A DNA stretch of 64,000 bases from Phocoena phocoena (taxonomy: Eukaryota; Chordata; Mammalia; Artiodactyla; Phocoenidae), in assembly GCF_963924675.1 (NCBI RefSeq), contig NC_089240.1, forward strand, positions 997,001 through 1,061,000, given 5' to 3'. The position numbers and the translations under genes are program-made. Positions within the stretch are counted from its first letter, which is position 1, and every line of letters starts with the position of its first letter. Below the pieces are notes generated by a model. It saw nothing but the letters and a program-made list of their open reading frames with translations, did no database searches and had not been told where the DNA came from. Positions 1,994 through 62,096 of the stretch are shown here, one piece after another.

Positions 1994-2985
1994 GTACCAC
2001 CTGCCGCGCCTGCGGGACGCGGCGCCCCGGCCCGCGGGTGGGGCTCGTTGCGCGGGGCGACGCTTCTGGCGTCCCCGGGTCGTCGCTCCAGATCCGCGCC
2101 CTGTGCTGAGGGAGCCTGCGGAGCTGTGGGTCGGCCTCCCCACGTCCAGGCCTCGCAAGGCCCGGCCTGACGCGGGGCGGGGGGGGTTACGTGGCGGGAA
2201 GTGGGGGTGGGCAGAGCCCGCCGAGGGCCGCCTGCCCACCCCCGGGGCTCACTGGGGCCGCGCTGCTCAGGCCCCGTCAGGTCAGCCGCCCTGGGCCGGG
2301 GCCTGCCGGGGGTCGGGGCGGAGGCCGGAAGGTGCGCGGTCCTCGCCGTGGCCCCGGGAAGCCAGGCGCCTGGAGCCGGGCCGCGCCCCCTCGGTCCGCA
2401 GCTGCAGAGCTGACAGGTCTCAGCTGCGCTGTGCGGACGGCCCTCCCGGTTCCCGCACCTGCTTCTCCTGGAGGCCAGGCCGGTAACTGCCGCGAGCCGG
2501 GCCGGGGGCGTGGACGGACCTTGCTGGGCGCGCCTGGTGCTCAGGCGGGCCGCGGAGTCAGGCGCGGGGCGACCCTAACCTGTTGTCTGGTTACAGTTGT
2601 GATCAGTCCGCGGGAAGGAGCGTGGCGGGCGCGCTGAGACCTGTGGCAGCGTGTTCTTGTTTCATGGTGAATATTGAAGACCCTGAGCAGGCCCGGCCCC
2701 GCGCCTCCGCGCCGTAATCTCAGTTCCCCATGGCCGGCGACCTTCGCACCGACAGCAGGCGCAGAAGGCCCGCCCCGGGGCCGCGGCGAGGAGCTTTGCC
2801 AGGGCTTTCCTCCGCCAGCTGGGCAGGACACCCGGGCGCGGGCAGGTGCGGCGGGCCGGGCTCCAGCCGCCCGCCCGCCCGCCCGCCCGCCGGGTCCCCC
2901 AGGCCGGCGTCTGCAGAGCCGCGCGCCGCGGAGCGTCCGTGTGGGTTCAGAGCCCAGCTCAGGCGCGGCCCCCTCTGTCCCGCAG
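1994..2985 (+). other. AKAP17A: AKAP17A last intron
   Basis: This 992-bp, very GC-rich intron has GT at 1994 and AG at 2984-2985. It carries a short (CCCG)n run near 2872-2893. A long chance open frame runs through the intron into the next exon on the plus strand. Only the part from 2986 matches the family, so the upstream part is treated as intronic. Confidence 0.8.
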
Positions 2986-3921
2986 GCCGTGAAGCTGCGG
3001 CAGCAGGAGCAGCGGGAGGAGACGCTGCGGCTGCAGCAGCAGGAGGAGCGCCGGCGGCTGCAGGAGGCGGAGCTGCGGCGAGTGGAGGAGGAGAAGGAGC
3101 GCGCGCTGGGCCTGCAGCGCCGGGAGCGCGAGCTGCGCGAGCGTCTGCTCAGCATCCTGCTCAGCAAGAAGGCGGACGGCGCCCGCGCGCCCGCGGGCCT
3201 GGGCGCCGCGCACGCGCACCTGCTGCAGCCGGTGCTGGACATCCTGCACACCGTGTCGGCCGGCTGCGCGGGCGCCGCCCCGCCCACGCCCGGCGCCCAG
3301 CGCGAGGCCCCGCCCCGGCCGCCGGCCGCCGGCCCCGCCCAGAACGTGAACGGCGGCGCCGCGGACGAGGCCCCGAGCAAGGAGGGGCAGGATCCTCGCC
3401 GGGTCGCCCCCGACGACGGCCCCTCCGAGAAGAGGTGCCCCGGCGTCCTCGCCTGCATCCCCGACAACAACCAGCAGCCCAAGGCCGTGCCCGCCGCCTG
3501 CGAGCAGAGCGCGCCCAGGAAGGACGCGCGCTCCGAGCAAGACAAGTGCAACCGTGAGCCCAGCGGGGGCCGCGGCCGGGCCAGCGGGGACCGGGGCAGC
3601 GACGACGGGCCCAAGCGGGAGCGCAGCCGGCCACGGCGGGCGGGCAGCCGGGAGGACGCGAGGCTGCCCAAGGAGCGGCGGTCGCACAGGAAGCGCTCGC
3701 ACCAGGACGGCAGCCCCCGCCGGCGCAGCGCCAGCCCCGAGCACGAGCGCGAGCGGTCGCGGAGGTCCCACAGCAGAGACCGGCATGGCCGGCGGGAGAG
3801 GAGCCGGGACCGGGACCGGGACCGCAGGGGCAGCTCGGGCAGGAAGCGCAGCCGCCACCGACGCAGCGAGAGGTCGCGCTCGGGCTCCCCCGGCCGGCAC
3901 CGCAGCACCTGGAACAGGTAA
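2986..3921 (+). CDS. AKAP17A: AKAP17A terminal coding exon (PKA anchoring and RS-rich C-terminus)
   Basis: The exon starts in phase 0 after a CAG acceptor, encodes 311 residues and ends with TAA at 3919-3921. Order of parts: a charged coiled coil (about residues 1-65 of the exon); an amphipathic segment containing LLQPVLDILHTVS (near 3222-3260), which looks like an A-kinase anchoring helix; a Pro/Ala-rich linker; a conserved stretch with CIPDNNQQPK; then a long Arg/Ser/Asp-rich tail ending in RSTWNR. RS-type tails direct proteins to splicing speckles. The family links PKA to splicing factors; which helix binds PKA is inferred from pattern only. A CGGGAC hexamer repeat near 3805-3826 gives an Arg-Asp run that looks longer than I recall in human. 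The bases around the stop resemble a splice donor. No frameshift is seen. Confidence 0.93.
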   Translation, partial: AVKLRQQEQREETLRLQQQEERRRLQEAELRRVEEEKERALGLQRRERELRERLLSILLSKKADGARAPAGLGAAHAHLLQPVLDILHTVSAGCAGAAPPTPGAQREAPPRPPAAGPAQNVNGGAADEAPSKEGQDPRRVAPDDGPSEKRCPGVLACIPDNNQQPKAVPAACEQSAPRKDARSEQDKCNREPSGGRGRASGDRGSDDGPKRERSRPRRAGSREDARLPKERRSHRKRSHQDGSPRRRSASPEHERERSRRSHSRDRHGRRERSRDRDRDRRGSSGRKRSRHRRSERSRSGSPGRHRSTWNR

Positions 3922-6554: not shown

Positions 6555-6775
6555 CCCAGGTTACCCGTGCAACCAACCCTTATCCACGGGTTCCACATCC
6601 ATGGATTCAGTGAACCGCAGATTGAATACTGTGTCTACCATCCGCGGTTGGTTGAATCCGTGTGTGCGCAACCATGCATACGGGAGGTGGACTCTGGGAC
6701 TTCAGCATCGGCGAATTTTGGTACCGGCGGTGGGTCCTGGAACGGATCCCCGTAGATACCGAGGGACAATTGTGC
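6555..6775. mobile_element. Tigger/pogo-type nonautonomous DNA transposon remnant
   Basis: The ends read like inverted copies of one another: ACCCTTATCCACGGGTTCC at the left and GGATCCCCGTAGATACCGAGGG at the right (each given here only in part). Phrases of the ATCCACGGATT/AATTTTGGTACC type are internal. This is the pattern of small mammalian Tc1/mariner-Tigger elements. The family name was assigned from memory. Confidence 0.55.
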
Positions 6776-15184: not shown

Positions 15185-16009
15185 ACCCCCTCTCTCCCCA
15201 TATGAAGGGCCCAGAGCCTGTTCAATCCATCCAGTGAGTTATCAACGCCAGGGATTAGTGGGCGTACGGGTTTGGGACCAGTTCCACAGCTGACGGTGCA
15301 AGGGCGGGCAGGGGCTGGGGGTGCAGGTGATTTTAGGGCTGTGTGCTCATCAGGGACAGAAGGAGTGAGCGGAAACCCCGGGGGTCTCCCATAAGCTTTG
15401 TCATCCCCTTAATCAGGCTGTTGGAATTTTCTAGAATAATCCATCTTGGGCTCACTCCCGGCCCAAGCAAAGAGCTTGAGGCATCAGCACTGAGCCCCTG
15501 GCCGTCCCCTCAGCTTGCTCAGAGACCTGTGATTCCCGAAACCGGGACGATTGGGGTCCTCCAAGCCAGGCTGGCCTGGAGGGAAGACGGGTTTCCCCTG
15601 GGGAGGAGAACTGCGGTCTCCTGGAGGAATATTCCAGCGCCTTCGTGGTCACCCAGGTGGGGGGCTCTGAGAGCTAGCGGCCGGGCGCGTAGACAGCCTG
15701 AGGCTGCCACCGGCACTGTCTGCTCTCCTCCGGGGGGATGAGAATGTCCGGGAACTCTGGACAAGACTGTGTGCCGAAGCTTGGCCATCGGGGCCTGGGG
15801 CCCTTCTGGGGATCTGTTGACCCCCATGGACTCCATCTCAGAAAGATGTTCATGCAAGCTTAACCTGAACTAGGTAAGATTACAAAGGAAATGATGGTTA
15901 TCGGAATACAGGTATCAACTTATTTCAAACACTTGGTGATCGAGGAATACGGGTGCTCGTCTGCTACACCCTAAACACAAGGTGATGCGTTTAAAATCGA
16001 GGCAGCTTT
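15185..16009. other. Spacer, possibly old LTR-derived sequence
   Basis: No gene recognised. Parts look like worn repeat sequence, but I could not place them in a family. Confidence 0.35.
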
Positions 16010-20340: not shown

Positions 20341-20515
20341 GTTCTCTTCCCCGCCTGTGAGCTGGGAGTCTTTGACCTTCTGGCCGAGGTCCTGGAGGCC
20401 CTGGGCTCGGCTGCAGTGGCTGCACCTCTGGGCGTCAGCTCCTGGGGGACAGAGCTACTGCTGGATGCCTGTGTGTCCCTGAAGCTGCTTCAAGTGGAAG
20501 TGAGGAGAGAAAAAG
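20341..20515 (+). pseudogene. ASMT: ASMT exon 2 (dimerisation domain), decayed gene
   Basis: An acceptor AG lies at 20339-20340 and a donor GTAAGC begins at 20516. The exon has 58 codons plus one base and is open. The translation begins VLFPACELGVFDLLAE and includes GTELLLD and CVSLKLLQVE, aligning without gaps to human ASMT residues of about 24-81 in the N-terminal dimerisation domain. The enzyme transfers a methyl group from SAM to N-acetylserotonin, giving melatonin. The exon itself shows no inactivating change. It is listed as pseudogene because downstream parts of the gene are broken. Confidence 0.9.
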
Positions 20516-20568
20516 GTAAGCATCCTGGCTATTTTGAAGGAGGCATTTTAAAGGTACATCCTCAGCAC

Positions 20569-20592
20569 TTTTTTTTTTTTTTTTTTTTTTTT
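20569..20592. repeat. Poly(T) tract
   Basis: A run of about 24 T lies between exon 2 and the hAT-derived minisatellite. Confidence 0.9.
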
Positions 20593-20937
20593 CTGTAAAG
20601 GGCCAGAGAGTAAGTATTCTTAGCCCTGTGGGCTGGCCGTGTGGTCTCTGCAGCTGCCACCCATCTCTGCCCTTGGCGCACCCAAGCAGCTGGAGACAAA
20701 CAAATGGGAGGGGCTGAGTGCCAATAAAACTTTATTGACAAGACAGGTGGTAGGCCAGGGTTTCAATAAAACTTTATTAACAAAAGAGGTGGTGGAACGG
20801 GGTTCTAGTAAAACTTTATTGACAAAATTCGTGGTGGGCTAGGGTTCTAATAAAAGTTTATTGATAAAACAGGTAGTGGGCCAGGGTTCCAATAAAACTT
20901 TATTGACAAAAACAGGCAGAGGGCCAAACTCAGAGAG
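20592..20937 (-). mobile_element. hAT-type element with internal 42-bp minisatellite
   Basis: It opens with TTCTGTAAAGGGCCAGAGAG, the end of a common mammalian hAT nonautonomous element read in antisense. Its AATAAAACTTTATTGACAAA segment is amplified: five units of exactly 42 bp begin at 20722, 20764, 20806, 20848 and 20890. It then leaves the array with CAGAGGGCCAAACTC. Because 42 is a multiple of three, a 14-residue repeat stays open by chance. Four of the five units carry AATAAA; the third has AGTAAA. Confidence 0.8.
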
Positions 20938-22518
20938 CAAACGCGGGATGTCATTTACCAGCTCCCGATCTAGAGGTTTCCTCAGGCTGGTGTATGCACT
21001 GGAACCCCGATGAAGTATCCAAGGAACAAGATAAAAATGTGAAAAAAAGAAATCTCAAGGGAGTAATCTTCCATCAAGCTGAACTGATTCAATTCAGGGG
21101 TTGCCATTTATGATGAGAGTATATTATTTTGGTGTTGAAGCTGCTTTTCTCTTATGGAAGATGGTGATGGTAGGGTTTTTTTTTTTTTCTTTTTTTTTTA
21201 ATGTCTTTCCTTTGCAAAATTCAAAACTGTCAACCCTATGTCGGTCATCCAGATGGTTTTTTAGAGTTTTGTCAATCCGAGAAATTGCAAAGCGTAGGGA
21301 CTATCGCTTGATAGAACAGGAGTGGGTGGCCCAGAGGTGGGGGAGGGGGGTAGCTGGTGGGCTTTTCTCTTGTAGCCAAAGAACTTGTGTACCTGTTGGA
21401 TTTCTGGGGTGCAAACAGCGCGGCCGAGTTAACTTGAACAGGAAGATATCATCTGAGGGGTTGATGGTGCTCAGATAGCCCGGCTTGGAAATCAAGCAGG
21501 TGCCAGCCACACCACGTGAACAAGCTTTGCAGGTCCCCCTCCCGGCCCCCACTAGCAGCACTGCCCCTGAATGCCCAGCCCATGCTGAAACCCAGTCAGG
21601 ATACACCTGTGGAGGATGCGGGATGTTCTATGGGAAGCACCTGGGGGTGGGAGGAGCCTGTGGTTCCCGCTGACATGCGGCCCAGGCAGGTGAGGATTTG
21701 CGCAAGCGCACAGGCTGGGAAGCCCCGTGACGGCAGCGTCCACTCCGGCTGTGCCTCTGGGGTCCCCGTGGAGACCCACAAACATTGGGCAGGTACGCAT
21801 TGTGCAGGAGAAATGAAAGGCTAGATCCTTTCTCCTCGTGAGCGGGACAAGCCGCTCCTGTCCTAGGAGGGATGCCATGACCAAGAACAGGACCACGCCG
21901 GACCCCAAGCACCACAGCTGGGCCCCCAGGACAGGCCCAGGCACCGGATGAGCCGTTCGGACATGTGGCCCCGAGATGCCCAGGGCCGTCCCCGCTTGTC
22001 GGGGGCTGGAGGGATGGATGGCTTAGGGTGCAGCCGGGGAGCACGGTGCCGTCTGCCCCGGGGGGCTGTGGGCGTCCTGCCCCTTGTGGAGATGATGGCC
22101 CCACCAGGCTCGGGTCCCTGCTGCACAGCTGAGCTCACCCACAAAGCGCCCCTTTCTCCCCTGATCTTTGTTTCCTCTGCACGAGTCGGGCTTTTGCCCC
22201 CATATGTCCATTTTAAGATCAGGTGTTGCTTAAAGGTCCGCAGACTGTAATATACGTTTCCCTCGGGCTCGTTGGCTGTTCACCGCTCCGCCGGATCTTC
22301 CCATGGGATTTGCCGAAGCTGAACCCAGCAGGTGCGCCTGCTGCCCACAGGTCAGCCGGCCCTTCAGGACGAGGGTCCAGCTGTTGGGACTTCCACGGTC
22401 CCAGGCAGGAATCGCGTTTCCATCCGGGTGTTCCCAGTGCTGGTGTCGGCATGTCGGCGATGCCTTGGTATCTAATGCGTTTTGGGGTTTTTTTTTCCTC
22501 TGTTCTGTGTGTTTTCAG
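20938..22518 (+). other. ASMT: ASMT intron 2 sequence without recognised exon
   Basis: A T-rich tract occurs at about 21177-21199, then GC-rich unique-looking DNA. No gene was recognised in this interval on either strand. Confidence 0.5.
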
Positions 22519-22648
22519 CTGTGTATGAAAACACAGAGCTTGCCAGCACCTACCTGGCCAGAGCCAGCCCCAAGTCCCAGCAGGACATGCTGCTGTACAC
22601 GGCCAGGACCACCTACCTGGGCTGGGGCCACCTGGCCGCGGCTGTCAG
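22519..22648 (+). pseudogene. ASMT: ASMT exon 3, decayed gene
   Basis: The acceptor TTTTCAG ends at 22518 and the donor GTGGGT starts at 22649. The exon is 130 bases, phase 1 in and phase 2 out, compatible with exons 2 and 4. Joined to exon 2 it reads AVYENTELASTYLARASP and ends WGHLAAAVR, aligning without gaps to 44 residues of human ASMT (about 82-125). It is open, with no internal stop. Confidence 0.9.
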
Positions 22649-22967
22649 GTGGGTGCGGTGTCGGTGGCGCTCCTGAGTCCCAGGGCTGCCTGGGGGCTGC
22701 TTTTCAGGGCATCCGAGGAATCGAAATGCCGGGTTTCTTGTAGAACCAAACGCAACATCATTAGATTTGGGAATCCGGAGCAGATGTGTGAGGTCACCTG
22801 GTGTCGACCGACGGGATTACTCTAATGATGTCGTGGTGAGAATCCTTGTGCTTCAGGCGTCTCCAGGGGAAGCGGGGTGCCCCAGGGCAAAGCAGGAAGA
22901 TAATCTGGAACAGACGGTGGAAAACCCTGCGTGCTGCTCTCTGCGTGTGTGACAGCTGTGCCGCACA

Positions 22968-23182
22968 CCGGGCTTCTCAGCCTCACCCCACTGGCATCTG
23001 GGGCTGGGTGACCCTCAGATGTGGGACGTCCTGGGCCCTGTGGGGGGCAGAGCAGCTTCCCTGGTCTCCACCCGCCAGGTGCCAGGAGCACCCCCTCCCC
23101 CCAGTGCGACAACCAACAATGTCCCCAGACATTGATAGGTGTCTCCTGGGGGCAAAATCAGTTGTAATTGGGAATCACTACG
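22968..23182 (-). mobile_element. MER20-like element (antisense), locus 1 copy 1
   Basis: Contains GACGTCCTGGGCCCTGTGGG, CTTCCCTGGTCTCCACCCGC, AATGTCCCCAGACATTGATA and TCTCCTGGGGGCAAAATCA. It is followed directly by a GATA-type microsatellite. Confidence 0.65.
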
Positions 23183-23627
23183 GTAGAGACAGATGGATAG
23201 AGCTATAGATAAGTGATAGATATTGATAGATCAATATTATTAGATAACTACTGATAGATTAGTAATGATACATTATAGATGATTGATAGACAATATTGAC
23301 AGTTTGGTAGGTGATTGATAGATATAGATAAATATTGATAAAATGATAGCTATGGTTAGGTATAGATAGATGATAGGTAGATGGATCTATAGATACGTGA
23401 ATCTATAGGTAGATGTTATTGATAGATAAATATTGTTAGAGAAATGCTGATAGATAAGTACTGATAGATAGTGACCAATAGATGATAGATATTGACAGAT
23501 GATTGATAGGTAATACGCATAGTTTGAGAGATAGATGATGATGGATGGACATTATTGATAAATACTGATAGAAGATGATAAATATTGATAGGTGGGTCTA
23601 GATAGATGACAGAGAGATAGACGAATA
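23183..23627. repeat. Degenerate GATA/TAGA microsatellite
   Basis: About 440 bp of imperfect ATTGATAGA and GATAGATA repeats. It is interrupted downstream by a hAT-type element and then resumes. Confidence 0.9.
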
Positions 23628-23875
23628 CAGCAGCCCCCAACCTTTTTGACACCAAGGCCCGGTTTCATGGAAGACAGTTTCTCCACGGACGGGGCGAGGG
23701 GGCTGGCAGGATAATTCGGGCAGTAACCCAAGCGATGGCGGGATAGCTCAGACGGTAATGTGAGCCGTGGGGAGTGGCGGATGAAGCTTCGCTCCTCTGC
23801 CCCCTGCTGTGTGGCCCAGTTCCTGACAGGCCGGGAACCGGTACTGGTCCACGGCCCAGGGGTTGGGGAACCCTG
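23628..23875 (-). mobile_element. hAT-type nonautonomous element within the GATA tract
   Basis: Inverted ends: CAGCCCCCAACCTTTTTGAC at the left and CAGGGGTTGGGGAACCCTG at the right, with CGGTACTGGTCCACGGCCCA inside. This is a common mammalian hAT-like repeat. GATA units flank both sides. Confidence 0.65.
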
Positions 23876-23935
23876 GCTGGATAGATAGATAGATAGATAG
23901 ATAGATAGACAGACAATAAGTGATAGCTAGTGGAA
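23876..23935. repeat. Clean (GATA)n tract
   Basis: About eight near-perfect GATA units directly after the hAT-type element. Confidence 0.9.
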
Positions 23936-23977
23936 TTATAATAGGTGACTGATAGAGAGAATCTCTGATGCTAGGTC

Positions 23978-24148
23978 AGGGTTTCTCAGCACGACTGACA
24001 TCGGGGCTGGGTGACCCTCTGATGTGGACGTTCCGGGCCCTGTGGGCTGTGGAGCAGCTTCCCTGGTCTCCACCCACCGGGTGCCCGGAGCTCCCCCTCC
24101 CCCAGTTGTGACAACCAACTGAAGACATTGACATTGTTGAGAACCGTG
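23978..24148 (-). mobile_element. MER20-like element (antisense), locus 1 copy 2
   Basis: Preceded by the leader TCTCTGATGCTAGGTCAGGG, then the same blocks as copy 1 (GTTCCGGGCCCTGTGGGC, CTTCCCTGGTCTCCACCCAC, CCCCAGTTGTGACAACCAA). The same leader reappears about 20 kb away. Confidence 0.65.
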
Positions 24149-25533
24149 GCTCTACATTTTCTTTCTTAATTATTTTAACTTAAACCCCATCTTGAGCCTC
24201 CGGTAGCTTAGCCATGAGAACCCGAGGACCCAGTTCTGCCGCTGGTTTTGGAAAAGATACAGCTCATCAGATTCACGCTTATCATGACTGTTTGATTTCA
24301 CATTTCTCTTCCAAAATCACACCCACGTGAGACTCACCGCGCACGTGGCATCGATGCTGTTCTGAGCGTCTCCAGGTGGCCCAGGGCCGGTGGGTAATGT
24401 GCATCAGGGTCGGGCCCACAGCTTGGAGCCAAGAGGACTCTCAGTAAGTCTCTGAGGGAGACCGAAGCGTCAGGGGTCTCGTGTCACAACCAGACAAGAG
24501 GGCACAGTAGGGACAGTGGCACAGCAGAGCGTGGACGCCCGTCTAAGGGGTCAGCCCCCCGTCAGCTCCCACAAGTTGTGCCCGCGCGGCCATGGGGTGA
24601 CGGCCGCCCCAGCTTCCGAGCTTTGTGCTTTACGAGAAGCAGGATGTCACGATTTCAAGGGGACGCCCCCTGAGTTTTTGACCTTGGGGCCCATTCAGTT
24701 AAAGAAGGAAGCCGTGAGGAGCTGGACACAGCCCAATGGACTCCGCCCGAGGGTGCGAGTAACCAACGGCGCCTCCACATCTCCGCAGCCCTTGCTGGAC
24801 CCTCTGGAGTCGGTCCGAGGGACTTCAGTGCTTTGCCCCACGTGCAAAAGGAGCCTCTGGTTTCGGAGCAACGGAGAGTAACAGGCTTGTTCCTCCTGCC
24901 TCGTGCTGGCGTATCTGGGTCCCACGCGGAGGCACGGATTTCTGCTGCTGTGTATTTTTCATCAGTGTCTCCCGAAGATCAGGTGGGAAAGAGATGCCTC
25001 CCCTGACCGAAGGCTGGGTCACCTCATGTCCATGAAAGGAGCAGGGGGCTGACTGCGGCCAGACTAGATCCAGGATGGAAGGAGGACACACCGCAGGGAG
25101 CCAGCTCACCTGTACATCAGGCAGCGGGGCCCAGGACGACCCAGAAATCCCCCCCTCACTGGCCTCAGGGGAGTAGCAGGAAGCTGTGGGTAGACCCGCT
25201 GGCCCTCCAGCTACAAGGAGGGCCCCATCCCCAGGTGCCAGGGGCTGAGTCCTCCTGGACCGAGGCATCGCCTCATTTCACGGCATCTTTACACTGTCTT
25301 TCGACTGTCCCTCGTTTCTTCTTTCCGCGCATCAGAGAGGCCTGCTGGATGGGTAACCTGCAGCTCTGAATGTGCAGTTACTGTTTGCAAACTAGAGAGG
25401 GATTCGTGAGTGTCTTGGGTTACTTGTTTCCTGTTCTGTCTGCGATGTAAGGATAGGGTCTGTGAGCACCGGTGTGCGGTACGTTATGTGCGGTAAAGTC
25501 TCAGAACCCGAGTGATGCCCGCCCCGTTTTCAG
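24149..25533 (+). other. ASMT: ASMT intron 3 remainder
   Basis: Unique-looking DNA between exons 3 and 4. No coding exon recognised. Confidence 0.5.
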
Positions 25534-25602
25534 GGACAGGAGGAACCAGTACCTGAAGGCCTTTGGGGTTCCCTCCGAGGAGCTCTTCACTGCCATCTAC
25601 AG
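25534..25602 (+). pseudogene. ASMT: ASMT exon 4, decayed gene
   Basis: The acceptor TTTTCAG ends at 25533 and the donor GTAACG begins at 25603. The exon is 69 bases, phase 2 in and out. With the neighbouring bases it reads DRRNQYLKAFGVPSEELF and then TAIYR, matching human ASMT at about residues 126-148. The exon is intact. A SINE has landed seven bases after its 3' end. Confidence 0.9.
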
Positions 25603-25608
25603 GTAACG

Positions 25609-25753
25609 CCAAGCACCTGCTTTTTTTTTTTTTTTTTTTTTGGCCTCGCTGCGGGATCTTAGCTCCCCAGCCAGGGGTTGAACCCGAGCCCCCTGCAGTA
25701 GAAGTGCAGGAGTCCTAACCACTGGACCGCCAGGCAGGTCCCAAGCACCTGCT
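25609..25753 (-). mobile_element. CHR-type SINE with 13-bp target-site duplication next to the exon 4 donor
   Basis: Poly(T) begins at 25621, followed by GGGATCTTAGCTCCCCAGCC and AACCACTGGACCGCCAGGCA. The duplication CCAAGCACCTGCT lies at 25609-25621 and 25741-25753. The element is inside the ASMT intron. Confidence 0.92.
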
Positions 25754-25764
25754 CTGATAGGGTT

Positions 25765-26515
25765 ATGCTTATATTTTAAAATTTTATTGAAGTGTAGTTG
25801 ACTGACAGTGTTGTGTTACTGTGTGCTGTACAGAAAACCGACTCAGTTATACACATTGATACAATCTTTAATATTCTTTTCCGTGATGGTTTATCCCAGG
25901 ATATTGAATAGAGTTCCCTGTGCTCTGCAGTAGGACCTCGTTGTGTATCCATCCTGTATATACAAGGCTGCATCTGCTAATCCTGACCTTCCACTCCTTC
26001 CCTCCCCCACCCCCTCCCCCTTGGCAACCACTAGTCTGTTCTCTGTGTCTGTGAGTCTGTTTCTGTTTCATACATAAGTTCATTTGTGTCACATTTTAGG
26101 TTCCACATAGAAGTGGTATCATATGATATTTGTCTTTCTCTGTCTGACTGACTTCACCTAGTATGATAACCTCTAGGTCCACCCATGTTGCTGCCAATGG
26201 CATTACTTCCTTCTTTTTCATGGCTGAGTCGTATTCCACTGTGTGTATGCACCACATCTTCTTTATCCGCTCCTCTGTCAGTGGACATACAGGCTGCTGC
26301 CAGGTCCTGCATGGAAACAGTGCTGCAGTGAACACTGGGGGTGCATCTTGGGATCTTTTCAGATTATGGTTTTCTCCGGATACATGCCCAAGCGGGAATT
26401 GCAAGTTCATATGGCAACTCTGTCTTGTAGTTTTCTGAGGAACTGCATACTGTTCTCAATAGTGGCTGCGTCAATTTACATCTCCACCAACAGTGCACAA
26501 GGACACCCTGGTTTG
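25765..26515 (-). mobile_element. L1 3' fragment (antisense)
   Basis: The antisense L1 order is seen: TTGAAGTGTAGTTGACTGAC, GGTTTATCCCAGGATATTGA, CACTAGTCTGTTCTCTGTGT, GAGTCGTATTCCACTGTG and GTGGCTGCGTCAATTTACAT. Confidence 0.85.
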
Positions 26516-27605
26516 AATAGTTCCCGGTGACCCAGTGAAGGAAGAAGATGGATATCCCAGTAGGACAGTGGGGAGCATCTTCCTGTCACTTCCCGAAGGC
26601 TGTTGTGGTCCTAGCTCCTTTCACTGCAGCCAACTAGCACCGGCTCCAAGGACGAGGGCGTGGGACACAGATGTGGTTCTCCGTGTAGACGACAGTGAGA
26701 ATCCTCTGGGCGGGGTTGCAGGCTGGTCTGCTGAAACTCCAAGAGCAGAGTCTTCTCACGCTGCCTTCCTGGTGGAGGAAAACACCGTGTGAGCCTGCAA
26801 GGATCAGGAGAGTTTACTGGGGTCCCGGGGGGCAGATGTCACTCCTCCGTCGTGATGCTGGCAGGGATGAGAAGGAAGGCCGGCCGCGCCTGCACGTTGG
26901 ACACTGGGAAGCTCCCAGAACAGACGCAGGACTGGGTGGATGGTCGTCCTCCCTGTCTTACGGGATAAGGGGGTGGGGCTCGGTTGAGGGCAAGACGGCA
27001 GCGGTGAGCACCAACCCTCCGTCTGGTTTCAGGAGACCCTGCAGCTCCCTCCTGACCCAGTACTGCCTTCCCATAGAGGAGGGACGGAAAGCACGGGTCG
27101 CCCTTCGGGTAGGGATGTGAGGCTTCAGAAAATCATCTCTGGTGCACAAGGGGTGTCTTTGCCATGTTCGCTGGTAGCAGGTTCCTCTAAGCAAGAGCAG
27201 ACTTGCAATTGCTCTGCCTTGGGGCCAGCTGGGCGTGAAAACACAAGACAGGAGGGTCTCCAGGACCTGGGACGTGCATGCCGTTGGCATCTGGGAGGGT
27301 CCCCCTTGTTTCTCACTGGGGCGTCCCCTGGAAATGTCCCCCACAGGGACCCACGGGCACATCTCACTCCAGCATTTGCCCACGGCTTCCTCTGCTTGGC
27401 TGGTGTCTTGTCTTCGGGTGAACAGATGCCCTGGCACGAGAGGACACAGTCAGGTCAGAGTCTGTGTGGAAGGTTGGCATGCGCGTCGGCCCAACCAGGA
27501 AGACCCCCTAGATTCCAGGCCCTGTAGTTGAGCCTGTAACTATGGAGACCAGAGTGTGGGTACCACCCAGGTCCCCACCCTGTCACGTCCTGTGTCCGCT
27601 TGCAG
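26516..27605 (+). other. ASMT: ASMT interval where the exon 5 counterpart is not found
   Basis: In other mammals an exon of roughly 115 bases lies between exons 4 and 6; it carries the segment before the SAM-binding glycine loop. I read this interval in all frames and found nothing resembling it. The sequence is unique-looking with no N run. Confidence 0.6.
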
Positions 27606-27746
27606 GTGGTTCCGGGGCTGTGGCCAAGGCGTGCATGTCTCTGTACCCGGGGTCTCAGATCACCGTGTTTGACATCCTGGACGTGGTCCAGATGGCAAAG
27701 AGGCACTTCTCATTCCCGGAGGATGAACGGATCGGCCTCTGTGAAG
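27606..27746 (+). pseudogene. ASMT: ASMT exon 6 (SAM-binding region), decayed gene
   Basis: The acceptor GCTTGCAG ends at 27605 and the donor GTGGGT begins at 27747. In its proper frame (phase 1 in) it reads GGSGAVAKACMSLYPG, then QITVFDILDVV and a KRHFSFPEDERIGLCE end. This matches the glycine loop and following helix of human ASMT. Several usually conserved positions differ: the loop is GGSGA where human has GGGAG-type residues, and FDIL stands for FDIP. If exon 4 were spliced straight to this exon, the frame would shift and meet TGA at 27670-27672. Confidence 0.9.
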
Positions 27747-27947
27747 GTGGGTTTCCAAGTGCTGTCTATGTCCACGGGGAAACAGATGCGTCCCGGGGGG
27801 GGCGTGGGAGAAGGCGGCAGTGGATGGTCAGAGTGGGTTCCTTCACCCTCCAAATATACTCCCCCTCAACCTAGAACCGTGAGTCATGACAGATGGAAAA
27901 CTCTGGGAGGGTATATCGTTTTCTTGCAATTAATTCTTTCTTGAGTA

Positions 27948-28378
27948 TTGTACTGGGTTCAACACTGTCCCGTCAAAATTCATGTCCAGCTAGAATTTGT
28001 GAATGGGACCTTATTAGGAAATAGGGTCCTTGCAGATGTGATGAAGTGAAGGGTCTGAGATGAGGTCCCCCTGGAGGAGAGTGGCCCTACATCCAATGGC
28101 AGGGTCCTTCTAAGACACAGAAGAGGAGAGACCCAGACACAGAGGAGAAGCCCCGAGAAGACAGAGGCACAGAGGGGAGGGACGCGGCCACAAGCCCAGG
28201 GACGCCTGGAGCCCCCAGGAGCTGAAGGAGGCGGGAAGGACCCTCCCCTGGAGCCTCTGGAGGGAGCGCAGCCCTGGGACACCTTGACCTCACATGTCTG
28301 GTCTCCAGGATGGGGGAGGATGGATTTCCTGGTCTGTGTCCATTTCTTACGGCCACCGCAGGGCACCCACACAGGTAT
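27948..28378 (-). mobile_element. Dispersed repeat family A, copy 3 (antisense)
   Basis: Shares GGGACCTTATTAGGAAATAG, GGCAGGGTCCTTCTAAGACA, GACGCCTGGAGCCCCCAGGA and CCCCTGGAGCCTCTGGAGGG with the other copies. It lies in the intron after exon 6. Confidence 0.65.
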
Positions 28379-28745
28379 CTAAATCCAGGTCACTAATGAA
28401 TGACAGTAAATGACATGGGTTGAAGGTAGGATCAGGGGTCAGTTCCTGACTCAGAAGCTTGAGAAGCTTCTCAGGCTTTCCAAGGCTCAGAGACCTACAG
28501 CAGCTTTGCCAGGAGCTGGAAGGGACTTCCTCTTGCTTTGGAAACGTGGGGTGCGGCTCCCAGAGATGGGCTGTCCCAGGAACTAAGGTCTAACCAGCAG
28601 ACGCCCTGTACCTCCATTTATGGAGGAAACTGGCCTTTCGTGGTTCTATTTTTCTGCTCGCTCAGAAGAAGAACACCAGGTGGGGATATCATTTCCATCC
28701 ACTCTTAGATCTGCTGTAAATTCACTGTGATGGTGATGATCATTT
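28379..28745 (+). other. ASMT: ASMT intron 6 part without recognised features
   Basis: Unique-looking DNA. No exon or repeat recognised. Confidence 0.45.
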
Positions 28746-28855
28746 TTGGCCACACCGTACGGCTTGTGGGATCTTAGCTCCCCAGCCAGGGATTGAACCT
28801 GGACCCCCTGCAGTGGAAGTGTGTAGTCTTAACCACTGGACCACCAGGGAAGTCC
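28746..28855 (-). mobile_element. CHR-type SINE (antisense)
   Basis: GGGATCTTAGCTCCCCAGCC, GATTGAACCTGGACCCCC and ACTGGACCACCAGGGAAGTC mark the tRNA-like head in antisense. Confidence 0.9.
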
Positions 28856-28893
28856 CTCGCTATTATGTTTTTTTTTTAAAAAATCACCTGCAC

Positions 28894-29083
28894 GGGACTT
28901 CCCTGGCGGTCCAGTGGTTAAGACTTCATCTTCCAATGCAGAGGGTGCGGGTTCGATCCCTGGTCGGGGAGCTAAGATCCCACATGCCTCATGGCCAAAA
29001 AACCAAAACATAAAACCGAAGCAATATTGTAACAAATTCAATAAAATGGTCTACATCAAAAGATCTTAAAAAAAATAAAATCA
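28894..29083 (+). mobile_element. CHR-type SINE (sense)
   Basis: GGGACTTCCCTGGCGGTCCA begins the tRNA-like head. The B box GGTTCGATCCC follows, and the tail ends with A-rich sequence. It lies head to head with the preceding SINE, 38 bp apart. Confidence 0.92.
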
Positions 29084-29298
29084 CTGCCGAGTTCATGGCA
29101 TCTCATGGGACAGGCATCAGCGTTGCATCTGGGGCCAGATGTGGGGTAGGCACTGCCAAAATGTTGACTGATCCAGACGAAGGATCATCTCCTTTTGAAT
29201 AGCCCTGGATCCGACAGGCTGATTTCTAGGTAACAAGAATGTGCTGGATCATGTCCTTGAAGGGCTGGATACCATCTTTACTGAAAATTCTGAAATCT

Positions 29299-29493
29299 GG
29301 GGACGTCCCTGGTGGTCCAGTGGCTAAGACTCCACACTCCCAATGCGGGGGGCCCAGGTTCGATCCCTGGTCCGAAAACTAGACCCCGCATGCATGCTGC
29401 AACTAAGAAGTCTGCACGCCACAACTAAAGATCCTGTGTGCTGCAACTAAGACCTGGTGCAGCCTACGTGAATAAATAAATAAAAATAAATAT
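29299..29493 (+). mobile_element. CHR-type SINE (sense)
   Basis: GGGACGTCCCTGGTGGTCCA, then the B box GGTTCGATCCC, then CAACTAAGAAGTCTGCACGC and a (AATA)n tail. Confidence 0.9.
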
Positions 29494-29559
29494 TTCAAAT
29501 TCAGAAATTTTGACCATCAGGAACTTGTTGGGGGGTGTGGGGGGCTCAATGCTGATTTT

Positions 29560-29912
29560 TTTAAAATTCTTTTTAATTTTTATTTATTTTTGGCAGTGCT
29601 GGGTCTTCGTCGCTGCGCGCGGGATTTCTCTAGTTGTGGCGAGCGGAGGCTACTCTTCGTTGGGGTGTGCGGGCTTCTCATTGCGGTGGCTTCTCTTGTC
29701 GCGGAGCACGGGCTCTAGGCGCGTGGGCTTCAGTAGTTGTGGCTCGCGGGCTCAGTCGTTGTGGCTCGCGGGCTCTAGAGCGCAGGCTCAGTAGTTATGG
29801 CGCACGGGCTTAGTTGCTCCCTGGCATGTGGGATCTTCCCGGCTCAGGGCTCGAACCTGTGTCCCCTGCATTGGCAGGTGGATTCTTAACCACTGTGCCA
29901 CCAGGGAAGTCC
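29560..29912 (-). mobile_element. Long CHR-type SINE (antisense)
   Basis: A full-length long form: TGCTGGGTCTTCGTCGCTGC, CTTCTCATTGCGGTGGCTTC, CTAGAGCGCAGGCTCAGTAG, and a final GCCACCAGGGAAGTCC head. Confidence 0.93.
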
Positions 29913-31038
29913 TTAATGTTGATTTCTAAAGCCATTGTATTAAAATATATTGAATCTCAAAGACCAACTTTTGGGGCCCCTTAAATTTTGTGTGCAGAGG
30001 CAGTGCCTCACCCTGATCTTAACCCTAATCCCACCCCTGGGGAGTCTTCCTCCTACTTCTTGGAGATACACGATCAGTGTTACTTCAGTGCCTCATTTGG
30101 AAAATGGGGTGAAGAAGCAGACTTTGGAGGTTGGGGGAATTAAGTGAAATACTACTCTATTGTGTGCTGTTACCCCGTTGAGGTTGGGTGTCTGCGATTG
30201 GTCCCCAAGGGCAGCTGGTAGAAGGTGCAGGCATGTCGACCTTCATTCCTGGGTCTGCATTCTCTCCAGGCTGTAGGCAAACAGACGCCGGACCGAATTT
30301 GGCCCTTGGGCTGTAGTTTTCTAAGAAAAACCCCTGTCTTTCTTCACTGAGTGGAAGAAAACCCATTTGGAGGAACCTCCTTCTCCGTGCCCTGTCTCAT
30401 GGGGGAATATTCTGGGGTCCATGTTTCCTGGGATACTCAGCACAAGAAAGAGATCCAGGGGATAGCATCTATGTCATCCAAGACATCCTCCCCAATTCCC
30501 GTGAATTTGCAGAGTATGGACCACACAGGTCAGCTGAGGTAACCCTGTCCGGCTCAGGGCTATCCAAGCTCTCTTCCCACATTGATACTTCTTGCAGGAA
30601 AAATGGTAGGAGAGTTGAGTGTTGGCCATCACCTACAGGTAAGAGTCTCTCGTGGGCATCTTTATTCAGTCAGGGAAACACGTATGGACCTTGTTGGTCC
30701 AGTTTGACTCATCAGAATGGAGCTTCTGATCCATTGCCAGGGACCTCCTGAAACCCATGGCTTAAAGGATGCTGTCTGTTTACACGGGACCTTCGGAAAC
30801 AAAATAAAAATAAAACCATTGTCCAGATCTGATGGAGGGAAAGGGGCCCCCAAACACCGTTCAGAATGGTCCTGTCTTCACTGAGATTTCTTTTGTTCAG
30901 GGGCTGGTTGAAAGGTCACCAGCTGGGAAGATCTGGGAAAGCTCGGTCCATACAGGTGGCCTTTCCCTGCTGGATGTTGGTGTGGTCCAACGGGATTGAG
31001 ATGCGGGCTGACCCCAGGGCACTCGCCCTGGGTTACAG
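29913..31038 (+). other. ASMT: ASMT intron 6 remainder
   Basis: Mostly unique-looking DNA that ends at the acceptor TTACAG before exon 7. No other exon recognised. Confidence 0.5.
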
Positions 31039-31161
31039 GAGATTTCTTTGAAGACTGCCTTCCAGAGCCGGATCTGTGCATCCTGGCCAGGGTCCCGCAT
31101 GACTGGACGGGTGAGAAGTGTTCACACCTGCTGGTGAGAACCTATCAAGCCTGCAAGACAG
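31039..31161 (+). pseudogene. ASMT: ASMT exon 7 (catalytic His region) with mutated donor
   Basis: The acceptor GGGTTACAG ends at 31038. The exon is 123 bases in a family-consistent frame: DFFEDCLPEPDLCILARV, then PHDW and KCSHLL, then VRTYQACKT. The histidine of the HDW motif is the family's catalytic base and is kept; the residue before it is Pro where human has Leu. The expected donor reads AT at 31162-31163 (ACAG followed by ATACGTGG) instead of GT. It does not match the U12 AT-AC donor consensus. Read-through adds three residues and stops at TAG, 31170-31172. A donor-like GTGAGA starts at 31134, where human codes Glu. Confidence 0.88.
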
Positions 31162-32574
31162 ATACGTGGTAGGGCTGGGTGTCGCTGTGCTGTCAACTCG
31201 GGGCAGGGTTGGCAGACTCTCCTTGGGGTGCCGGGGACTGAGTTCATGTCACAGGTAAGGGGAGTCGTCCAACCAAATGGCTCTCCTTCCGCATCCGTAA
31301 TTAAAACCGACCAAAAAATGGCATTGATAACCATTCTGCAGCGTATCCCAACGAAAGATGGAGGTAGCCGCTGTGTGTGATGGGGACCGTATCCTGTGAG
31401 GTCGCGATGCTGAGGGTCCACGAGGGCGTGGGCACAGCCTCTGTGTGTGATGAGGTCACAGTCACAGCCGACCGCTGAAGGTTTCCTTGCTTTCGGGACA
31501 TCACCATGTCTCAGGCTTTTGAATTGCTTCTCCCTCTCCAGAATCGTCTACTTTCCCCAGAAACTGTGGTTCTGCTAGTGGGGAATCATTTTCAGAGGCA
31601 GAGTCGCCATTGCTGGGAGGGCAGTGTTTCTAGACCCCTTCCGTGGAGAGAGCTAGGAAGTGGATTGAACACGCTGAATTATTTACATTTCCATCCATAG
31701 GGACGTTACCGGGCAGTGACTCAGTGTTTCTAACGCCGTCCTTGTGTGGTGTCCTACACCCGAGCCGTGCTCCTAAGATCGTCAATAGTCCTTGTTTGCC
31801 TGTCCTGATCTGTACATGACGTCATTCCGGAGGAGCAAAACCAAGGTTACTGCAAACAAGAGAACTGCCAGGCGGTGCTGTGGCTTGTCTGCAGTTCTTC
31901 TGTTTAGAATATCCACGCATTGGTGCATCCACGTTCACAGAAACTACGGTTGTCGCCCGGAGGTGATGTTGCCCATCGGGCTCGTGGTCTTCGGTTTGCT
32001 TCCAGTGTTTAGGCCTTGCCTCCGCTTTTTATGTGTTAATTCTTGGAGGACTAACACATTTGCATGATTCGAAAACCAAATGCTGATGAAAGGTCCATGC
32101 AGAGAAGTCCAGCTTGTAATCTGACCCCCTCACACATATTTCTCCCCAGCTCTTGTAGGAGAGCTGATTTATGCTCTTTTAAAAAAAAAAAAATTACAAA
32201 AAAAATAAATAAAGCCGCCGTGTTTCCTGGGTGAAGCCACGCCCGGGAGGGACCTGGCACCGGGGCCGCTGCCCACAGCATCCACGGTCACCTTGCCGCT
32301 CACCCCCCTTGTGTCTGAGATCCAAACACAGCGCCTGCCGGTTTGCATATTTCTCTGGATGGCCGGAACTCTGCAAGGGAAGCCGTCGGTGGTGCTGAAG
32401 CCAGGGGCAGCCCTCGGAAGCAGAGGAGCATGGCTTTGCAGGTCCGGAATTTCTAGCCAGCAGGAAGCTGACCTCGGGCACGTTACCTACCTTCTCTGCA
32501 CCCTCACGCTTCAAATTTGACAGACGGGACTGGGTAATCGCTAAAGTTTGTCTTAAATGCCCTGCGATTCTTTC
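31162..32574 (+). other. Region after ASMT exon 7; C-terminal exon(s) not found
   Basis: Family members end with one or two more exons coding the GGGILVIE-like strand and the C-terminal helices. I saw no match here or further on to 64 kb. A mixed A-rich stretch lies at about 32180-32212. Confidence 0.5.
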
Positions 32575-61654: not shown

Positions 61655-62096
61655 TTGAGTATATAAAATGTCACAGTATTAAATGAAGATATAGACAAAT
61701 AAAGGAAATACATAAAATATCACAATATTAAATGAAAATACAAAGAAAACATATAAAATGTTACAATGTTAAATGCAAATAGAGACAAATAGACTATATA
61801 AAATGTCACAACATCAAATGCAAATATAAAGGAAATATATAAAATGTCATAATATTAAATGCAAATACAGACAAAGACAGTATGTAAAATGTCACATTAA
61901 ATGCAAATACAAAGAATATATATAAAATGTTGCGATATTAAATGCAAATACAGACAAAGACAGTATGTAAAATGTCACATTAAATGCAAATACAAAGAAA
62001 ATATATAAAATGTCACAATATTAAATGCAAATATAGACAAATAAAGACAGTATATAAAATGTCACAGTATTAAATGCAAATACAGGTGAATAAAAA
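61655..62096. repeat. Tandem array, about 41-42 bp unit, with POU octamers
   Basis: About ten units of the ATATAAAATGTCACAATATT, AAATGCAAATACAGACAAA type. Perfect octamers ATGCAAAT begin at 61773, 61818, 61859, 61901, 61942, 61984, 62025 and 62074. The first two units have ATGAAGAT and ATGAAAAT instead. Two subtypes alternate, with or without the ATATT before the octamer. Confidence 0.92.

Follow-up and report, generated by a model that had tools for sequence, protein, structure and literature searches.

The stretch of DNA considered here, referred to as the window, comprises 64,000 nucleotides of Phocoena phocoena (RefSeq assembly GCF_963924675.1, contig NC_089240.1, forward strand, ending at position 1,061,000). 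It starts at position 997,001 of a 130.3 Mb contig, C22 in what follows, and carries a locus of ASMT, the gene for acetylserotonin O-methyltransferase. When the human ASMT protein, which is identical to PDB 4a6d, was aligned to the window, exons 2, 3, 4, 6 and 7 were recovered with 61-79% identity and E values from 2.5e-7 to 2e-17, all of them in open frames (Table 1). The original prediction, made from the letters of the window, had described five exons that align well to ASMT and a donor AT after exon 7, and both observations stand; all other splice sites of the five exons are AG or GT. Read-through past the AT donor adds three further codons and then a stop (D T W stop). A processed pseudogene is ruled out, since the exons are spread across about 15.6 kb and introns are present. 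Intron 2 holds a 42-bp tandem repeat of about 4.6 copies (window 20721-20916), the consensus of which starts CCAATAAAACTTTATTGAC.

Table 1. Features of the ASMT locus and its upstream neighbour, in positions of the window
Feature	Position	Strand	Remarks
AKAP17A 3' coding exons, upstream neighbour	two matched blocks, 1751-1993 and about 2983-3918	+	protein matches
ASMT exon 1	15488-15656; coding part 15587-15656	+	15488 edge implied by narwhal gene model; donor GT intact
ASMT exon 2	20341-20515	+	open frame, acceptor AG, donor GT
ASMT exon 3	22519-22648	+	open frame, canonical splice sites
ASMT exon 4	25534-25602	+	open frame, canonical sites; final base is the second of codon 148
Interval expected to hold exon 5	25603-27605	+	exon 5 unrecognisable
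Cryptic frame-keeping 32-nt stretch, putative exon	27077-27108	+	AG/GT edges; counterpart of the narwhal model's exon 5 substitute
ASMT exon 6 (presumably exon 7 in 9-exon human numbering)	27606-27746	+	open frame, canonical sites
ASMT exon 7 (presumably exon 8 in 9-exon human numbering)	31039-31161	+	open frame; A245P, Y248C, L254P
Mutated splice donor AT after exon 7	31162-31163	+	read-through adds D T W, then a stop

The first exon had been reported missing, which proved incorrect: it lies about 4.7 kb upstream of the left edge of the original prediction, where matches to narwhal and horse models support it. The coding part translates as GLLEEYSSAFVVTQ, with a GT after it, and its phase is correct for a join to exon 2. 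Six of seven mammalian ASMT queries matched it in a 144-kb search, at weak E values (0.05-2.5). Over 57 residues, positions 15489-15659 agree with a portion of the narwhal ASMT model at 93% identity, and the sequence just 5' of the coding part resembles the N-terminal extension of a horse ASMT model, with 40% identity across 50 residues and an E value of 2.3e-7. An exon 1 probe scored 36 compared to at most 24 in 200 shuffles, but the probe was chosen after the match and the test is not independent. At the expected ATG position, 15587, the sequence reads ACG, and there is no ATG within 15400-15656. From this ACG to the donor there are 70 nucleotides, compared to 69 for 23 codons. If the ACG is the old start, exon 1 would contain one extra nucleotide, whose position within the exon is inferred. 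The length fits, and may reflect, the 1-nt insertion published for cetaceans.

Exon 5 should measure about 119 nt, as calculated by hand from the flanking phases. It is unrecognisable in the interval between exons 4 and 6, where the best E value, 3.3, falls within the range of 30 shuffles. Poor sensitivity of the probes was rejected as the cause, since all six exon 5 queries matched the corresponding exon of the paralogue ASMTL in the same genome with E values of 1e-7 to 3e-5. The absence of an exon 5 counterpart, claimed earlier, is thus upheld. Because the exon should be 119 nt long, joining exon 4 directly to exon 6 shifts the frame, and stops are met in exon 6. Two stretches inside the interval recur many times nearby; we take them to be a SINE and a LINE-1 fragment. 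The only Rfam matches were two to tRNA, interpreted as SINE-like repeats.

The C-terminal exon, exon 9, is likewise unrecognisable in 31162-64000 and in the 80 kb of contig that follow. This span amounts to 112.8 kb; its 67 N are confined to a single 10-kb piece within the outer 80 kb. One exon-9-like match, at 79840-80001 of the joined stretch and 45 kb past the last exon, was discarded: it has 33% identity, two stops and no AG before it, and its E value of 0.099 is in the middle of the range of 30 shuffles (0.006-0.53). In the positive control, all six exon 9 queries matched the last exon of ASMTL (E 7e-4 to 0.37), and the three best of these E values were lower than those of all 30 shuffles. 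Insensitive probes were again rejected as the explanation, with a smaller margin than for exon 5. The earlier statement that no C-terminal exon is found therefore holds for the 112.8 kb downstream, a badly decayed copy aside.

A functional ASMT enzyme is ruled out at this locus by the loss of the start codon, exons 5 and 9, and one donor. The defects are as follows. The start codon is lost and exon 1 probably carries a frameshift; exon 5 is gone, and with it the conserved active-site Gly187, and a transcript that skips it runs into stops in the following exon. Exon 7 has lost its donor, and read-through ends after three codons. No C-terminal exon is recognisable. The locus cannot make the enzyme. 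The step affected would be the last of melatonin synthesis, which acetylserotonin O-methyltransferase catalyzes. ASMT in this genome is accordingly interpreted as a unitary pseudogene, with a probability of about 0.96. The same term had been used in the original prediction, and it is borne out by the lesions, by the single copy in the assembly, by changed residues at invariant positions, by the lesions of AANAT and MTNR1B in the same genome, and by lesions shared with whale gene models. We infer that function has been lost in the animal.

The conservation of individual residues was examined with human ASMT and 24 of 120 listed ASMT proteins (of 1260), mostly of about 345 residues, the annotated models being assumed functional. 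In 23 placental ASMTs, 69 of 212 aligned positions are invariant, and the window departs at eight of the 69 (A40V, P43A, C116G, G127R, L193V, A245P, Y248C and L254P). The last of these adjoins His255-Asp256. Each of the 23 placental proteins, tested in the same way, has 0-4 departures. With two marsupials added, the window departs at 6 of 61 positions compared to 0-3 (0-4.7%) for the others. Close pairs in the set, such as camels and bovids, depress their own counts, and lone lineages are the fairer comparison; the dugong, one such lineage, departs at 3 of 72, and Sapajus, with 4 of 73, has the highest count of the placental ASMTs. Judged by residue conservation in this one genome, constraint on the ASMT of the window is relaxed.

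Among 120 proteins listed (of 279) there are 10 cetacean models named ASMT, from nine species (P0241-P0248, P0253 and P0254); the entries are 90% clusters and may represent others. Exon 9 is absent from all 10, and none starts at the start of exon 1. The gray, humpback and blue whale models (two for the blue whale) have a recognisable exon 5, and that of the minke only its 3' end. Exon 5 is found in none of the five toothed-whale models (narwhal, beluga, common dolphin, vaquita and Pacific white-sided dolphin). Exon 7 is present in three of these five. The narwhal and beluga models end in ACKTDTW and the common dolphin model in ACKTDAW, which is read-through of the dead donor as in the window. 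The two baleen models with exon 7, gray and minke, read ACKTG. L254P is common to the window, narwhal and beluga, and the VLEALG, AAPLG and DILDVV of the window are found elsewhere among the cetacean models only in that of Phocoena sinus. Lesions shared with other whales, expected if the gene is dead, were thus found in gene models: the dead donor, the loss of exon 5 in toothed whales, and the loss of exon 9.

The odd ends and fillers of several cetacean models map to intron or flanking sequence of the window. The humpback model P0247, with 345 residues, was rejected as a candidate for an intact whale ASMT because it starts outside exon 1, is without exons 7 and 9, and has a tail that is intron in the window. 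The cetacean database models examined are read as stitched models of a dead gene, and these acetylserotonin O-methyltransferase entries should not serve as functional sequences.

Several points weigh against the interpretation of the locus as a pseudogene. Five exons are intact, as are most splice sites, and the openness of the exons would be surprising at high divergence. In a rough neutral simulation with assumed rates, the share of runs in which the five exons remained without stop or frameshift was 16-30% for 0.02 substitutions per site, 3-16% for 0.03-0.04, and 0.2-2.6% for 0.06. At the likelier divergences, the open frames of the five exons are no strong argument for function. The margin of the exon 9 control is thin for some probes, and one of the six queries, camel, scored another place above the ASMTL exon. 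A reasonably preserved exon 9 is excluded downstream; a heavily decayed one could escape. Finally, a chain of 301 codons can be read through the locus in which the frameshift of exon 1 is bypassed by a new ATG at 6674-6729 and the frame is kept over the lost exon 5.

This chain gives rise to the alternative that fares best, namely that in toothed whales the locus has been rewired, with a new upstream ATG, a cryptic exon and a read-through stop, to encode a new, non-methyltransferase protein of about 301 residues. The chain (6674-6729, 15488-15656, exons 2-4, 27077-27108, then exons 6-7 with read-through to 31175) is open throughout, with GT-AG at each junction in the window. The narwhal model P0241, also of 301 residues, corresponds to it, and counterparts of the upstream exon are used in the models of common dolphin and Pacific white-sided dolphin. 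Against this, the 2-kb interval between exons 4 and 6 contains 232 frame-keeping bridges compared to an average of 190 in 20 shuffles, and 216 upstream ATG exons, counted without shuffles, reach exon 1 in frame. With bridges and upstream ATG exons so abundant, an open chain of 301 codons is expected by chance. Related assemblies offer the same chance exons to an automatic annotator, and the five toothed-whale models disagree on the replacement for exon 5. The rewired frame was rejected as evidence of function for the abundance of chance alternatives, and a new protein at this locus is considered very improbable.

Slightly less probable still is an error of assembly or base calling, with an intact ASMT in the animal. 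The start, donor and single-base lesions are of kinds that can arise by sequencing error, and one genome was examined. The window is, however, without N and forms part of a 130-Mb contig. The models of narwhal, beluga and common dolphin show the donor lesion too, none of the five toothed-whale models contains exon 5, and all 10 cetacean models lack exon 9. The exon 1 insertion was confirmed by published read checks in six species (PMC6410235).

Decay of ASMT itself, as opposed to that of a relative or a spare copy, is indicated by searches of the whole assembly (2.51 Gb, 439 contigs), in which only the best candidates were scored. Pfam family PF00891 (Methyltransf_2) matched two exons at the window locus and one ASMTL exon. 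The ASMT protein matched five exons at the window locus and three ASMTL exons (C22:890-901 kb, minus strand). One further match, the ninth, on contig C1 with E 4.3, was taken as noise. No third ASMT-like locus was present at E <4 among the best candidates scored, and the window locus is the single ASMT copy found in the assembly. The paralogue, about 110 kb from ASMT on the same contig and on the minus strand, has a Maf-like exon (Pfam Maf, E 2.8e-10) next to ASMT-like exons on one strand, and was named ASMTL for that reason. We take the fusion of Maf and ASMT-like domains to be the defining trait of ASMTL. That the exons of the window are those of ASMTL, or of a second, retired ASMT copy with a working one elsewhere, is the least credible alternative: ASMTL, some 110 kb distant, does hold an ASMT-like domain in which the same exons have counterparts, but the window exons are nearer to human ASMT (61-79%) than the ASMTL exons are (45-61%, exon by exon), and the search uncovered no further locus among the best candidates scored.

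The neighbouring genes agree with this assignment. AKAP17A, upstream, is 99% identical to its Phocoena sinus counterpart and 95% to that of Tursiops (307 residues searched). The order on the contig is ASMTL (-), AKAP17A (+), ASMT (+), which is presumably the human order as well. By its closer match to ASMT than that of the ASMTL exons, and by its conserved neighbours, the gene in the window is identified from sequence as the ASMT orthologue. The locus lies about 1 Mb from one end of C22. From the size of the contig and the human gene order, C22 is probably the X chromosome and this its pseudoautosomal end. Elsewhere in the window there is an AT-rich minisatellite with an 83-bp unit and about five copies (61660-62084).

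Other genes of the melatonin pathway are also damaged in this genome. In AANAT (C19:7939426-7940688) AGG replaces the start codon, exon 1 is interrupted by an in-frame TGA, and the frame changes in exon 3. In MTNR1B (C8:41195202-41195941) the frame changes in exon 2 between two overlapping matches. The search with MTNR1B, in which 113 of 296 candidates were scored, yielded one other locus with at least 50% identity (C22:126258717-126259490, 50 and 56%). That locus is presumably GPR50. MTNR1A is probably absent, since the sole other locus above this level is probably GPR50; this is judged from the MTNR1B search, no search aimed at MTNR1A having been completed. The presumed GPR50 locus has an open frame of 569 residues, open though its relatives are broken. 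The earlier remark that melatonin-pathway genes have been lost in cetaceans is therefore correct: AANAT and MTNR1B are broken here, and such losses have been published.

Loss of ASMT in whales and dolphins is already known, and the published set of lesions matches. Lopes-Marques et al. (2019; PMC6410235) describe a cetacean Asmt pseudogene with a 1-nt insertion in exon 1. Exon 5 is eroded in five toothed whales, including the porpoise N. asiaeorientalis; sperm and gray whale retain it intact. They also note a non-canonical splice site at exon 8 in toothed whales, and exon 9 in none of the assemblies analysed. A later study reports the exon 1 insertion as common to 21 of 25 sampled cetaceans, ω values of 0.93 for crown Cetacea and 0.7 for stem Cetacea with relaxed selection, and a loss of ASMT before about 37 million years ago; an AANAT stop and an MTNR1B deletion are also shared in cetaceans (Emerling et al., 2021; PMC7613276). 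On the strength of this literature, the decay presumably began in the cetacean stem. The original prediction had suggested that the decay could be dated. This has been done: dating, shared lesions and dN/dS already appear in the 2021 paper. No later paper on whale ASMT was found in a literature search judged by titles and abstract openings. A third paper, by Huelsmann et al. in 2019, is cited in this literature.

The loss has been linked in the literature to the reduced pineal gland of whales, and it is confirmed here in a chromosome-scale assembly. The present results also add the weight of one genome to a question outstanding since 2019, namely whether the absence of exon 9 reflects a real loss or only gaps in assemblies.

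Exons 1-4, 6 and 7 of the gene in the window agree with human ASMT (PDB 4a6d) in order, phase and sequence; lost from it are the start codon, one donor, and exons 5 and 9. ASMTL shares the ASMT-like domain, and in this genome, unlike ASMT, it retains the exons that correspond to 5 and 9. The published cetacean pseudogene has, in toothed whales, the same loss of exon 5 and a mutated donor at exon 8, which presumably corresponds to exon 7 here. The lesions of AANAT and MTNR1B agree with the published toothed-whale pattern. In contrast to the account of Lopes-Marques et al. (2019), exon 9 was sought here in about 113 kb of near-continuous sequence with a paralogue as control. Where Emerling et al. 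(2021) give dN/dS for many species, the present analysis applies a test of residue conservation to one genome.

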